Shown here: in pieces, positions 5,511 to 14,407 of the stretch | How positions within the stretch are numbered: the first letter of the stretch is position 1 | How the letters are laid out: every line of letters begins with the position of its first letter | NCBI GenBank assembly: GCA_947365485.1 | Contig: CANAXK010000010.1 | Location: forward strand, 1-18,183 | DNA from: an uncultured bacterium | GTDB lineage: Bacteria > Cyanobacteriota > Vampirovibrionia > Gastranaerophilales > Gastranaerophilaceae | DNA: 18,183 nucleotides | Reading direction: 5' to 3' | Notes under the pieces: generated by a model | Told to the model about the DNA's origin: nothing | The model's input: only the letters and a program-made list of their open reading frames with translations | The model's database searches: none | Position numbers and translations under genes: made by a program

Positions 5511-5786
5511 ATGAAGAAAAACAAAGACGACGAAATACTATTAAATGCTATTGGCAAAATCATCAGACGTGAGCGCATGAAAAGAGCTGGCAAGTTTACG
5601 ATTTTTTGTTACGAAAATGATGTAGCGAAAACAAGCATGTATATGCTTGAACATGCAAGAAACAAAGCTTTCATCACAACTCTTTTTAGAATCACAAGGC
5701 TGCTTGGCATGTCTTTTGAAGAATTTGGGCGTGAGCTTGACAAACTGGTTCCAAAGGATTTATACAAAGACCTGGAAGAAATGTAA
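5511..5786 (+). CDS. Small XRE-like helix-turn-helix protein, 91 aa
   Basis: A single DNA-binding-type domain fills almost the whole protein. Residues 12-70 follow the XRE layout: IGKIIRRERMKR as helix 1, a divergent turn region (FCYENDVAKTSMYMLEHARN) as recognition helices, then TTLFRITRLLGMSFEEFG, the usual C-terminal helices. The match is weaker than for the other three XRE proteins here because the usual Gln-Leu-Ala triad is replaced. No Shine-Dalgarno sequence precedes the ATG; a TATTAT hexamer at 5497-5502 would start transcription 0-2 bases before the start codon, so a leaderless mRNA is possible. A perfect inverted repeat at 5453-5482 lies just upstream. Probably a transcriptional regulator, possibly self-regulating. 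Confidence 0.65.
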   Translation: MKKNKDDEILLNAIGKIIRRERMKRAGKFTIFCYENDVAKTSMYMLEHARNKAFITTLFRITRLLGMSFEEFGRELDKLVPKDLYKDLEEM

Positions 5787-7006: not shown

Positions 7007-7234
7007 TTAAAGCGAAAAATCAAACAGCTCGCATACATCAACGTCCAAAGCATTTGCAATTCTGACCATTGTATTAATCGTCACATTAGCCTCACCACGC
7101 TCAATCTGCCCGATGTAATTAAAATTCATATCTACAATTTCAGCAAGCTTAATCTGAGAAACTTTTTTTGATTTCCTGACATATGCAAGCTTCGCGCCAA
7201 AGCGTTTAGCTACATTTTCATTTTTCATATCCAT
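7007..7234 (-). CDS. Small XRE-family transcriptional regulator
   Basis: A 75-aa protein consisting of one XRE/Cro helix-turn-helix domain: FGAKLAYVRKSKKVSQIKLA (helix 1 and start of helix 2), then the recognition segment and IGQIERGEANVTINTMVRIA, ending in ALDVDVCELFDFSL, the canonical C-terminal helix. I chose the internal ATG at 7234 (MDMKNENVAKRFG) over the one at 7264. The longer form adds ten atypical residues, and a -10 hexamer TATAAT (7241-7246) with a 17-bp-spaced TAGATA puts the transcription start exactly on the 7234 ATG. The mRNA would then be leaderless. It probably binds DNA as a dimer and may regulate the downstream AMIN gene, which lies 116 bp away on the same strand. Confidence 0.85.
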   Translation of the reverse strand: MDMKNENVAKRFGAKLAYVRKSKKVSQIKLAEIVDMNFNYIGQIERGEANVTINTMVRIANALDVDVCELFDFSL

Positions 7235-7240
7235 AATATA

Positions 7241-7269
7241 ATTATATACTTTGCACTCACCCATATCTA
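7241..7269 (-). promoter_or_regulatory. Promoter of the XRE gene, leaderless arrangement
   Basis: On the minus strand TAGATA (7264-7269), a 17-bp spacer and a perfect TATAAT (7241-7246). The expected start is at 7234, the A of the ATG. No Shine-Dalgarno sequence is present. Confidence 0.5.
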
Positions 7270-11478: not shown

Positions 11479-13188
11479 ATGTTAAAAGATTTTTTTCTAA
11501 AAGAAGTTGAAAACGGAATAAACAAAGCAATCGAAGCTGGCAAGCTCGGGCAGATGAGCGAATACAATTCAGGTTCCTTGATTATAGAAAAACCAAAGAA
11601 CGCTGATTTTGGCGACTTTGCGGTGAATGTTTCTTCACTTGCGCGCTCTGCAAAAATTGCACCGCCTATGATTGCAAACGCGATTGTTGAAAATCTATCT
11701 TGCCAAAACTACACAGTGTCAGTTGTTGGCGGGTTTATCAACTTCAAGATAGAAAATTCGCTTCTTGCAGACGCTGTTGCAGAAATTCTCAAAAAGAAAG
11801 AGAATTACGGTAGACCAGAAGGGGTTAAGACCGAAAAAATCCTGCTTGAATATGTTTCTGCTAACCCGACAGGGCCTTTCCACATCGGGCACGGGCGTTG
11901 GGCTGCGATGGGAAGCGCGCTTGCAAATCTTTTGAAATTCTACGGGCACGAAGTGTATCAGGAATTTTACATCAACGACGCGGGTTCGCAAATCCAGAAG
12001 CTTGGAAATTCTTTAAAAATTAGAATCAAGCAGGAATTGGGCGAGGATATTGATTTTCCGACTGATGAAGTTGAAAGAAAGAATTACTATCCCGGCGATT
12101 ATCTGATTCCGGTTGCAAAAAAATTCCTGTCAGAACACGAGCCTACAGAGGATGTAAAAGTGCTTTCTGATTACGCAAAAAAAGAGATGGAAGCTTGTCA
12201 GAAGGCTTTACTAGAAGATTTCAGGGTGCATTTTGACAAATTCTATTCAGAGCTTGATTTGCATAATTCCGGTAAGGTTGAGGAAAGCTACAAAGAGCTG
12301 ATGTCAAAAGGAATGCTATACGAAAAAGAGGGAGCAATGTGGTTCAAGTCTTCCGAATTTGGTGATGACCAGGACAGGGTTATCAAGAAGGCTGACGGGT
12401 CAAACACTTATCTTACCGCAGATATCGCTTACCACATAGACAAGTTAAGACGCGGTTACGACCGTTTAATCAACATCTGGGGTGCAGACCACCACGGCTA
12501 TGTTGCGCGTGTTAAGGCTTCAATCGAGGCACTGGGGTATGACCCTGACAAATTGGAAGTGCTTCTCGGGCAGCTTGTAAACCTTGTTATAAACGGCGAA
12601 GAGGTTCGTATGGGCAAACGTAAGAACATGGTAACGCTTGACGATTTGATTGAAGAGGTTGGAATCGATGCAACTCGTTACTGGATGGAGATGCGGAACA
12701 TTGACATGACGCTTGATTTTGACATAGAGCTTGCAAAGCGTTCAACAGACGAAAATCCGGTGTTCTACGTTCAGTATGCTTATGCGAGGGTTTGTTCAAT
12801 TTTGAGAAACGCGATTTCTGAAAAGCTCAATCCTGAAACAGGCGAGAAGTCTGCTGCGCCGATGAGTGAGGCAGAGTTGGCTGAGTTAGTGAATAATTTT
12901 GACAAGGATATGATTCTTAGAACTGCTGAGAGTGCAAAATCTTTGATTCTAAAGTTAGAGGAGTTCAAGTCCGTAATTGTGCTTTCTGCGCAGAACAGGA
13001 CTGTTTACACGATTTGTCGTTATGTTCAGGAGCTTGCGGCTGAATTTCATTCGTTCTACAATTCAAACCGCGTTATTTGCGATGACAAGGAGTTGATGAA
13101 ATCAAGGCTTGCATTGATGGTTGCGATTAAGACGACTTTGAAGAATGCGCTTGATATTTTGGCTGTGTCTGCGCCTGAAAAGATGTAG
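11479..13188 (+). CDS. argS: Arginyl-tRNA synthetase
   Basis: This 569-aa class I aminoacyl-tRNA synthetase charges tRNA-Arg. The N-terminal Arg-tRNA-synthetase domain (about 1-95, with NADFGDFAVN and FINF) leads into the Rossmann fold with VSANPTGPFHIGHGRWAAMG (HIGH at 135-138). The adenylate-site segments LTADIAYHIDKL and NIWGADHHGYVARVKA follow. The position of the KMSKS loop is taken by VRMGKRKNMVTLDDLI, as is normal for ArgRS. The C-terminal anticodon-binding DALR domain starts near VQYAYARVCSIL and runs to the end. The length is normal, and a GAGGA site precedes the ATG. The DUF559 inverted-repeat unit begins 4 bp after the stop codon, so the gene is intact but has a repetitive hairpin directly at its 3' end. 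Confidence 0.96.
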   Translation: MLKDFFLKEVENGINKAIEAGKLGQMSEYNSGSLIIEKPKNADFGDFAVNVSSLARSAKIAPPMIANAIVENLSCQNYTVSVVGGFINFKIENSLLADAVAEILKKKENYGRPEGVKTEKILLEYVSANPTGPFHIGHGRWAAMGSALANLLKFYGHEVYQEFYINDAGSQIQKLGNSLKIRIKQELGEDIDFPTDEVERKNYYPGDYLIPVAKKFLSEHEPTEDVKVLSDYAKKEMEACQKALLEDFRVHFDKFYSELDLHNSGKVEESYKELMSKGMLYEKEGAMWFKSSEFGDDQDRVIKKADGSNTYLTADIAYHIDKLRRGYDRLINIWGADHHGYVARVKASIEALGYDPDKLEVLLGQLVNLVINGEEVRMGKRKNMVTLDDLIEEVGIDATRYWMEMRNIDMTLDFDIELAKRSTDENPVFYVQYAYARVCSILRNAISEKLNPETGEKSAAPMSEAELAELVNNFDKDMILRTAESAKSLILKLEEFKSVIVLSAQNRTVYTICRYVQELAAEFHSFYNSNRVICDDKELMKSRLALMVAIKTTLKNALDILAVSAPEKM

Positions 13189-13192
13189 TTTA

Positions 13193-13236
13193 GCGTATTC
13201 CCTCTCCTTAGGGAGAGGGCTAGGGTGAGGGGTCAA
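13193..13236 (+). repeat. Left inverted repeat of the DUF559 unit (44 bp)
   Basis: It starts GCGTATTC, contains a perfect hairpin CCCTCTCC/GGAGAGGG around TTAG, and ends TGAGGGGTCAA. Apart from one 6-bp insertion (CTAGGG, 13220-13225) it is identical to the reverse complement of 13580-13617. The GAGGGG near its inner end lies 6 bases before the DUF559 ATG and serves as ribosome-binding site. Confidence 0.9.
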
Positions 13237-13237
13237 C

Positions 13238-13576
13238 ATGGCAAAAAATACAGATTTAGCAAGAACACTACGCAAAAATTCAACACCCCAAGAGCGAATA
13301 CTTTGGAAAATTCTTAGAAATTCCAACATTAATAACCTAAAATTCAAACGACAGCATCCAATCGGGCCTTATATTGTAGTTTTTATATGCAAAGAAAAAA
13401 TGCTAATAATCGAACTGGATGGCGGACAACATAACGAACCCGACAACATTGATAAAGATGCCGAAAGAACAAAATATCTTGAAACTCGTGGATTTAGAGT
13501 TTTACGATTTTGGAATTGTGATATTGATAAAAATATTGCAGGTGTTTACGAAACGATATTAAAATCACTTGAATAA
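13238..13576 (+). CDS. DUF559 (Vsr/PD-(D/E)XK-like) protein with altered active site
   Basis: The 112-aa protein matches DUF559 over its whole length: LARTLRKNSTPQERILWKIL, FKRQHPIGPYIV, LIIELDGGQH, and YLETRGFRVLRFWNCDI near the end. The family is thought to have a nuclease fold related to the Vsr mismatch endonuclease. The family motif after GPYIV is normally Asp-Phe, the Asp being the likely metal ligand; here codon 48 is GTT (Val) where GAT would give Asp, a single-base difference. Glu59, Asp61, Gln64 and His65 remain. The reading frame is intact, so the protein may be catalytically dead yet expressed, or only recently inactivated. The left repeat supplies the ribosome-binding site. The natural role of the family is unknown. 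Confidence 0.88.
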   Translation: MAKNTDLARTLRKNSTPQERILWKILRNSNINNLKFKRQHPIGPYIVVFICKEKMLIIELDGGQHNEPDNIDKDAERTKYLETRGFRVLRFWNCDIDKNIAGVYETILKSLE

Positions 13577-13579
13577 AGA

Positions 13580-13617
13580 TTGACCCCTCACCCTCTCCCT
13601 AAGGAGAGGGAATACGC
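13580..13617 (-). repeat. Right inverted repeat of the DUF559 unit (38 bp)
   Basis: The reverse complement of 13193-13236 lacking its 6-bp CTAGGG insertion; all 38 positions otherwise match. It contains the same CCCTCTCC/GGAGAGGG hairpin. The hairpin may also end transcription weakly, although no T run follows. Confidence 0.9.
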
Positions 13618-13680: not shown

Positions 13681-13900
13681 GGATTTTGAAAGAGAGACAT
13701 ACATAAATCTTGGTAAAAATATTCGAAAGTATCGTCTTGCCAAAGGCTTGTCACAAGAAAAACTTTCAGAACTTCTTGATGCAAATTCAAAATTCGTCGG
13801 TCATGTAGAACGTGTTGAACGTTTTATCAGCCTAAAAAAACTCATACTATTATCAAATATATTGGAAGTACCCTTGTTTAAATTATTTGATTTTAGATAA
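13679..13900 (+). CDS. Small XRE-family regulator (paralogue 1), 73 aa
   Basis: A minimal XRE/Cro DNA-binding protein with no other domain: LGKNIRKYRLAKGLSQEKLS forms helices 1-2, DANSKFVGHVERVERFIS the recognition helix and turn, and KKLILLSNILEVPLFKLFDF the closing helices. It is clearly related to the protein encoded at 14159 (IRKYR/VRKYR, LSQEKLSELL/LTQEQLSDRL, GHVERVER/GHIERCER). No Shine-Dalgarno sequence is visible. The only in-frame upstream ATG (13661) is followed at once by TAA, which fixes this start. The 15-bp palindrome at 13666-13680 and the 26-bp shared element suggest auto- or cross-regulation. The next gene is convergent, 3 bp away. Confidence 0.88.
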   Translation: MDFERETYINLGKNIRKYRLAKGLSQEKLSELLDANSKFVGHVERVERFISLKKLILLSNILEVPLFKLFDFR

Positions 13901-14158: not shown

Positions 14159-14407
14159 ATGTCAAGCTTTGATAAATATTTTCAGAAAAATATTGCTAAA
14201 CAAGTCCGGAAATACCGGACTATGAACCGCTTGACGCAAGAACAATTGTCAGACAGGCTTCGCTTAAATCTCAAATACATAGGACATATTGAACGCTGTG
14301 AGAGAAGAATGAGCCACAAGGCTATTATTACATTTCTAAAAGTCCTTCAAATTCAACCTTCTGAATTTTTTTCGTTTGAAGAACCTTTCGACTGGAATAA
14401 CAACTAA
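14159..14407 (+). CDS. Small XRE-family regulator (paralogue 2), 82 aa
   Basis: A single XRE helix-turn-helix domain: IAKQVRKYRTMNRLTQEQLS, then LRLNLKYIGHIERCERRMSH (recognition helix and the IGHIERCER turn), then ITFLKVLQIQPSEFFSF. It is a paralogue of the protein at 13679, with a slightly longer acidic C-terminal tail ending in WNNN. No Shine-Dalgarno sequence precedes the ATG; CATAAT at 14147-14152 lies 6 bases before it, which fits a leaderless transcript. The upstream 26-bp element is shared with the paralogue. The last 4 bp overlap the convergent solute-binding protein gene. Confidence 0.88.
   Translation: MSSFDKYFQKNIAKQVRKYRTMNRLTQEQLSDRLRLNLKYIGHIERCERRMSHKAIITFLKVLQIQPSEFFSFEEPFDWNNN

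Follow-up and report, generated by a model that had tools for sequence, protein, structure and literature searches.

A Vsr-fold nuclease gene between inverted palindromic repeats as a probable minimal mobile element

For many short palindromic repeats, no driving enzyme is known. In the DNA analysed here, a stretch of 18,183 nucleotides from contig CANAXK010000010.1 that we call the window, a DUF559 gene lies directly behind argS and is enclosed by two inverted palindromic repeats. The locus raises the question whether a nuclease and a palindrome can spread together as one unit, in the logic of RAYT/REP pairs and with no transposase, as an earlier note on this DNA had proposed.

The 425-bp unit and its repeats in the same genome

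The unit covers positions 13193..13617 (425 bp). Two copies of a repeat, 44 bp on the left and, inverted, 38 bp on the right, enclose a DUF559 gene of 112 codons, with a single base between the left copy and the gene and three bases between the gene and the right copy. Its features and the adjoining gene are as follows.

11479..13188, + strand: argS, a host gene (Pfam) and context outside the element; its stop ends at 13188, 4 bp from the unit
13193..13236, + strand: left repeat, 44 bp, with an outer GCGTATT, a C/T-armed hairpin and the G-rich tail CTAGGGTGAGGGGTCAA (direct reading, inverted-repeat search)
13200..13219, + strand: hairpin of the left repeat, CCCTCTCC-TTAG-GGAGAGGG, of the YTAR-loop form
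13227..13232, + strand: GAGGGG, a putative ribosome-binding site judged from the sequence, within the left repeat and 5 nt upstream of the ATG
13238..13576, + strand: DUF559 gene, 112 aa, a Vsr-fold PD-(D/E)XK-type nuclease with Val at residue 48, elsewhere a conserved Asp
13580..13617, - strand: right repeat, 38 bp, inverted and lacking 6 bp of the tail (direct reading, repeat search)
13591..13610, - strand: hairpin of the right repeat (folding, pattern search)

Direct reading confirmed to the base the description of a 44/38-bp inverted pair with a 6-bp indel and 8-bp hairpins. The two repeats are identical once the six bases CTAGGG are removed from the left copy, and each contains an 8-bp stem with a 4-nt loop, where the arms are C/T-rich and G/A-rich. 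In both repeats the G-rich tail TGAGGGGTCAA points toward the DUF559 gene. The inner edges were also found where they had been placed, 1 base before the ATG and 3 bases (AGA) after the stop codon, and so was the start of the unit 4 bp past argS. Single-strand DNA folding gave z values of -2.8 for the left and -3.9 for the right repeat. When up to three mismatches were allowed, the hairpin pattern occurred in the window at the two flanking sites only and in 0 of 200 shuffles, and the repeat pair was at the top of the window's list of inverted repeats (at least 20 nt, within 1.5 kb). These results exclude a pairing by chance. By direct reading there is no GTAG at the window repeats, and Rfam at gathering scores gave no match within the window. 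The window also contains four short helix-turn-helix-like genes at 5511-5786, 7007-7264, 13682-13897 and 14159-14407; HTH_3 (Pfam) was found on two of them, once above the cut-off and once just under it, and the other two were assigned by look.

The gene belongs to DUF559 (PF04480, E 2e-38 with Pfam), a family whose Pfam entry still gives its function as unknown. Profile and fold match Vsr and the homing endonuclease I-Bth0305I, and the DUF559 protein has the Vsr-like fold by which EDxHD/Vsr-type nucleases are recognised. In a 31-row alignment with window numbering, E59, D61 and H65 are kept, and D48 and D74 are nearly always present; we take these five to be the catalytic residues of the active site. 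The window copy has a valine at position 48 where the family has an aspartate. From this substitution in the sequence, the copy may be dead and is probably past its active life, and the loss of a conserved acidic residue argues for decay rather than domestication. We know of no transposase or strand-transfer chemistry for the Vsr-type fold. Another DUF559 protein, VsrA of Caulobacter (CCNA_02930), acts within the cell, and in the absence of the ScmA methyltransferase it triggers an SOS response (PMC12907096).

The genome that carries the window is a MAG of 1.63 Mb in 227 contigs and is 84% complete. With the left end of the unit as query, 38 repeat matches at E<=1e-3 were obtained in it, mostly about 25-45 bp long, so that the expected further copies of the repeat do exist. 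Two of the 38 are the flanks of the window gene. Half of the 36 others were read: 16 of these 18 lie outside any ORF of at least 120 codons, and in 11 of the 18 a stop codon is found within 12 bp of the repeat (by reading of distances), as at argS. The YTAR-loop hairpin has 15 copies in this genome. A search of 57 other genomes of the genus gave 7, 4, 2, 1 and 1 copies in five of them and none in the other 52. The expansion is specific to this lineage.

The second DUF559 gene of the genome (C6) follows rarA and has an inverted pair of its own with the same plan. This pair differs in sequence (CCCTTCTCCCC-TGTG-TGGGAGAAGG, with a tail that ends in GATGAGGGG). Since two genes with two different repeat pairs are present in one genome, a chance placement in one repeat family is unlikely.

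DUF559 genes and C/T-armed hairpins in other bacteria

The association was analysed in two sets of DUF559 genes. For the family set, 146 genomes of the same bacterial family were searched with the PF04480 profile, and 92 of the 100 listed rows with at least 80 bits were examined, leaving out the seven weakest and the separate second domain of the L024 ORF. The named set comprised the best 80 of at least 576 relatives, mostly on contigs of Alpha-, Beta- and Gammaproteobacteria. For each gene, the 300 bp upstream of the domain were compared with the 300 bp downstream of it, the best inverted repeat across them was scored, and 16 was used as the threshold, one of several computed. One locus with a short flank (L031) was dropped from the family set for this test, and two from the named set (L159 with a short flank, L164 with an N-run).

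In the family set, 76 of 91 DUF559 genes reached a score of at least 16, compared to 2 of 401 same-size shifted intervals at the same loci. On the named contigs this was the case for 54 of 78 genes and for 6 of 744 controls, where one of the 54 (L136, score 16.0) is merely a run of C. Fifteen of the 91 family genes and 24 of the 78 named genes stayed under the threshold. A threshold of 20 gave 60/91 against 1/401 in the family and 52/79 against 2/744 in the named set, the latter with the N-run row kept. DUF559 genes elsewhere are therefore flanked by inverted repeats far beyond controls, as had been anticipated. When the flanks of different genes were cross-paired, 87 of 600 combinations still scored at least 16, indicating a common consensus among the repeats. 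The matches outside the Proteobacteria include two Chloroflexi SAR202 MAGs (L145, L176), two Desulfobacterota MAGs (L141, L147) and a Rokubacteriota MAG (L157).

The hairpins in the 300-bp flanks were then grouped by arm and tag, with class definitions that were set after seeing the sequences. A C/T-arm hairpin was present at 74 of 92 family and 68 of 79 named DUF559 genes, and at 0 of 115 and 3 of 149 shifted positions, respectively. The GTAG class was found at 3/92 and 0/79 of the genes and the CGTC class at 3 and 3. A strict regular expression with an exact CCCTC detected 23 of 92 family and 9 of 80 named loci (shifted 3/174 and 0/153); these counts are low because the stems vary. Eight loci from a plasmid collection were inspected by eye (E. 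coli, Azospirillum, Deinococcus, Sinorhizobium, N. gonorrhoeae, Synechocystis, Picosynechococcus and Sphingomonas). C-rich hairpin repeats were seen near all eight, and in four of them (Azospirillum, Deinococcus, Sinorhizobium and Sphingomonas) inverted pairs exceeded the threshold. Together with the hairpin classes, these loci bear out an impression in the earlier note that GGGAGAGGG-type repeats accompany DUF559 genes.

At the level of whole genomes, the pattern CCCTCYCC-N0-6-GGRGAGGG occurred in 42 of 51 genomes with a strong DUF559 match (at least 80 bits) versus 22 of 95 without one (628 versus 171 hairpins; Fisher p 4e-12 over the 146 genomes, with kinship ignored). Nine of the 51 have no hairpin of this pattern. 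The reversed pattern was absent from all 146 family genomes. Of the genomes behind the named loci, 28 of 30 contained the hairpin and 0 of 30 the reversed control. The highest count, 182 hairpins, was obtained in an Azospirillum genome, where the places listed are often paired roughly 90-120 bp apart. Protein similarity and repeat similarity were correlated, with a rho of 0.24 for 1,839 pairs with unrelated flanks from 62 family elements with a clear arm; this value was reached in 0 of 500 permutations.

Seven genomes without a strong DUF559 match (G046, G092, G083, G028, G022, G001 and G111) contain 5-44 C/T hairpins each. G046, which is 99% complete, has 44 and G092 has 28; G083 is 57% and G028 84% complete. 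The hairpins in these genomes may reflect partners that have decayed or are missing, or a different enzyme.

In E. coli the DUF559 gene is ycjD, in the order sapF-ycjD-fabI (L347, L350). A 1,127-base query over ycjD reached at least 80% coverage in 3361 of 5426 genomes and had a median of 4 matching places per genome; the match listed for NZ_CM128586 is just the repeat. Repeats of the DUF559 type (GGGTGAGGGG-type) are found at ycjD on the downstream side only. Two ycjD-less strains were rejected as a simple empty site; efflux genes follow sapF in them.

Unoccupied sites, moved copies and insertions within genes

The region downstream of argS had been named earlier as a place where sister strains might show an empty site. 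The argS gene was matched in 38 genomes, and 12 loci were fetched, including the own one. The unit was missing after argS in all 11 sister species read, which agrees with the expectation, but a clean two-flank empty site had to be rejected, as the DNA directly downstream differs in 11 of 11. C/T-type repeats lie about 300 bp past argS in G170, with no DUF559 gene. The second unit was found after rarA in none of the 19 relatives read, three of them with less than 500 bp readable. In G165 the same two rarA-side neighbours are about 20 bp apart with neither repeat nor DUF559, compared to about 790 bp in the own genome. An insertion shared by all sisters was thus not observed, the G165 locus being unoccupied.

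By eye, C/T-type repeats without DUF559 were seen within the first 330 bp after rarA at L440, L442 and L445 (G152, G179 and G154). Beyond these repeats, the neighbours differ from those in the window genome. With those of G170, they indicate that repeats can occupy such sites without the gene. The region downstream of rarA therefore accepts repeats by itself and is a possible hot spot. At the insertions, no target duplication was found.

Closely related copies were also found at unrelated places. One contig of G040 carries L087 and L090, with 92% identity across 318 bp and unrelated flanks. Unrelated flanks also surround L023, L025 and L041 from three genomes, which are 84-87% identical. Plasmids or phages are unlikely as the main route, with relatives in 45 of 72,556 plasmid-collection and 2 of 50,697 phage records. 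Several of the plasmid records are chromosome-sized, for example NZ_CP141089, a 4.9-Mb E. coli 'plasmid', and the plasmid count is therefore an overestimate. In IMG/VR (2.9 million contigs), 111 of 284 stretches with the pattern encode a relative, and most among the 80 listed are weak.

In a manual count, 33 of the 92 family copies were in frame with at least 80 residues of another ORF. The hosts are ispE (8, one with the domain before ispE), priA (7), an HydE-like radical SAM gene (6, at the C-terminus), an M14 peptidase (5), UvrD-type helicases (4) and prmA (3). Host identity was confirmed by family models for one representative each and by reading for the other members. In PriA and UvrD the host model matched before and after the insert, and PrmA gave two matched stretches. 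The repeats of the in-frame copies are translated as linkers. No intein family was among the listed matches of representative in-frame proteins, seven of which were compared with NCBIfam (E<=1e-5, best 25) and six with Pfam (E<=1e-5).

In ispE, the gap between two conserved motifs measures 174-366 residues in the eight occupied genes. In G116, G187 and G068, of the same genus as four of the occupied ones, it is 24-25 residues. The gap in G203 is 35 residues and retains the end of the right repeat, and we read this sequence as the scar of an in-frame loss. Fifty genes were read in all, and the remaining 38, three of which were judged by eye, have short gaps (23-51 residues). A tree of the 92 domains, which rests on few columns and has rough support, places the priA and the hydE copies in one group each, across several genera, and requires two changes for ispE, two for prmA, four for the M14 peptidase and four for uvrD. 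Some host genes were therefore probably entered more than once. A GIY-YIG domain is fused in frame upstream of ispE at L229 and L243 (G122 and G219), where the linker AIAGQARND resembles a translated palindrome.

A proposed mechanism, its alternatives and known systems

We consider it likely that the 425-bp unit is a minimal REPtron-like mobile element with a Vsr-fold nuclease and that the solitary repeats are its non-autonomous products. The association, the specificity with respect to RAYT, the dispersal and the correlation between protein and repeat lead to this reading, as do the lineage-specific presence, the unoccupied loci, the near-identical genes elsewhere and the loss scar in ispE. 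The proposal that nuclease and palindrome spread as a unit by a RAYT/REP logic with no transposase is supported, and none of the results refutes it. The pairing of DUF559 and palindromes in distant bacteria suggests an undescribed minimal mobile element without a classical transposase, and we infer that DUF559 itself drives the spread of the repeats. The nuclease would recognise its cognate hairpin and tail, probably in single-stranded or cruciform DNA at replication, and would nick or cut the recognised repeat. Host break repair or template switching could then copy the repeat, or the whole repeat-gene-repeat, to new sites, which would often be just past stop codons and sometimes in frame within genes. 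Solitary repeats would relate to the DUF559 unit as REPs do to the RAYT gene.

If this is correct, mobile DNA can spread by means of a nuclease in the absence of any known transposase, and entire nuclease units can reside in frame within housekeeping enzymes. DUF559 and the C/T-hairpin repeats would both gain a function if the family supplies a dedicated nuclease for this class. Since E. coli carries ycjD, the idea is testable there. No paper that ties DUF559 to such repeats was found in the open-access literature, and subscription journals may hold an earlier description. Neither CCCTC nor GAGGG appears in the accessible parts of PMC3733652 or PMC12306157.

An unlikely but not negligible alternative is that the nuclease cuts gene-less repeats and that repair via the 40-bp repeat arms inserts the gene, while some other process disperses the repeats. 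DUF559 is akin to I-Bth0305I in profile and fold, the gene usually lies between two repeats, and many solitary repeats could serve as targets; the gene-less repeats seen by eye after rarA in G152, G179 and G154 would fit as well, although their further neighbours differ from those in the window's genome. However, the two-flank unoccupied loci (rarA in G165, ispE in G116, G187 and G068) are repeat-free and have conserved neighbours, which disfavours homing into repeats. Homing alone also does not predict that repeat abundance tracks the presence of DUF559.

It is quite improbable that a RAYT or another transposase moves the repeats in trans with DUF559 as a passenger. The REP-type architecture would allow it, a Y1 transposase is also present in 29 of the 51 DUF559 genomes, and end repeats with a GGGGWSAS motif are described for some tyrosine transposases in the part of PMC3733652 available to us. 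Y1_Tnp was the one transposase family tested here. PF01797 (Y1_Tnp) had no match in the window's genome, which is 84% complete. At 30 RAYT loci of the same bacterial family, fetched among those listed, GTAG hairpins were found 21 times and C/T and CGTC hairpins at 0/30 each. Their flanks had inverted repeats with a score of at least 16 in 15 of 30 cases, as published REPtrons predict (PMC2817692, accessible part), and the loci thus serve as a positive control for the method. The link between hairpin and DUF559 persists in RAYT-free genomes (17/22 versus 14/75) and is seen in RAYT-bearing ones (25/29 versus 8/20). With DUF559 held fixed, the effect of RAYT was not significant (p 0.07 and 0.47, kinship ignored). 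These results make RAYT unlikely as the mover of the C/T repeats, and the same gene family as a passenger across distant bacteria would be odd.

Least probable is that DUF559 is a resident Vsr-like repair nuclease with hairpins around it that act as terminators, attenuators or mRNA stabilisers: the activity of Caulobacter VsrA in the cell and the hairpins near stop codons would agree with this, but the lineage-specific presence, the copies at unrelated sites, the matching inverted pairs on both sides, the in-frame insertions in unrelated genes and the missing acidic residue of the window copy do not.

The favoured reading of a mobile DUF559 unit can be compared with several known systems. The unit resembles RAYT/REP in that one gene lies between two inverted palindromic repeats, solitary and paired copies are dispersed, and protein and repeat co-vary; for RAYTs, flanking REPs, dispersal and co-variation are described in the accessible parts of PMC2817692 and PMC3733652. 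It shares with REPtrons the flanking inverted palindromes (in the window and in 76/91 relatives) and a dispersed cognate repeat (38 matches). The enzyme, however, is of the Vsr-fold PD-(D/E)XK type, whereas RAYT is an HUH/Y1 transposase, and the palindrome of the DUF559 unit combines C/T arms with a G-rich tail and carries no GTAG tag. We conclude that the DUF559 unit works like RAYT/REP yet is not a member, since it has neither the Y1 domain nor the GTAG tag. With I-Bth0305I/EDxHD and Vsr it has the fold in common, but no intron, intein or long fixed target was seen for DUF559, and unlike in those systems the gene is flanked by dispersed palindromes and has many unrelated insertion sites.

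MITEs are short inverted-repeat DNAs that are dispersed without a transposase of their own. The short dispersed inverted repeats of the DUF559 unit are similar, but the unit encodes a nuclease, and its repeats are internally palindromic, dispersed singly and were found with no target duplication.

CGTC REPs and Rickettsia palindromic elements are short palindromes that also occur inside genes, many of them for replication or repair, as reported in the consulted portion of PMC3733652, and the intragenic DUF559 insertions recall these in-gene REPs. The same portion of that paper describes CGTC repeats as apparently lacking a dedicated transposase; in contrast, the DUF559 nuclease gene travels within the inserted unit. 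The GGGGTGAG tail would fit the GGGGWSAS motif as given there for tyrosine transposases, and a link between the two systems is possible. CGTC palindromes (GTCATTGCGAG..., GTCATCCTGAACTTGTTTCAGGATC...) were also observed to flank small GIY-YIG genes, at 18 of 20 secondary copies versus 1 of 30 top-hit loci. The 20 secondary loci (L411-L430; for example L414, L417, L424 and L426), from the same family, were hand-picked after the ispE fusions had been seen, and 9 of 20 had inverted pairs with a score of at least 16. No paper that combines GIY-YIG with 'repetitive extragenic palindromic' was found in the open-access literature. GIY-YIG genes may be the missing partner of the CGTC REPs. Tentatively, and with somewhat more doubt than confidence, we propose that bacterial REP-type palindromes are the convergent outcome of at least three unrelated nucleases, each of which would lie between palindromes of a class that it propagates: HUH transposases (RAYT) with GTAG, Vsr-fold DUF559 nucleases with C/T-armed and GIY-YIG nucleases with CGTC palindromes. 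The DUF559 units would then form a categorically new class of mobile DNA that moves by nuclease cutting and host repair with no transposase, can insert in frame into essential genes and can leave scars there that keep the frame.
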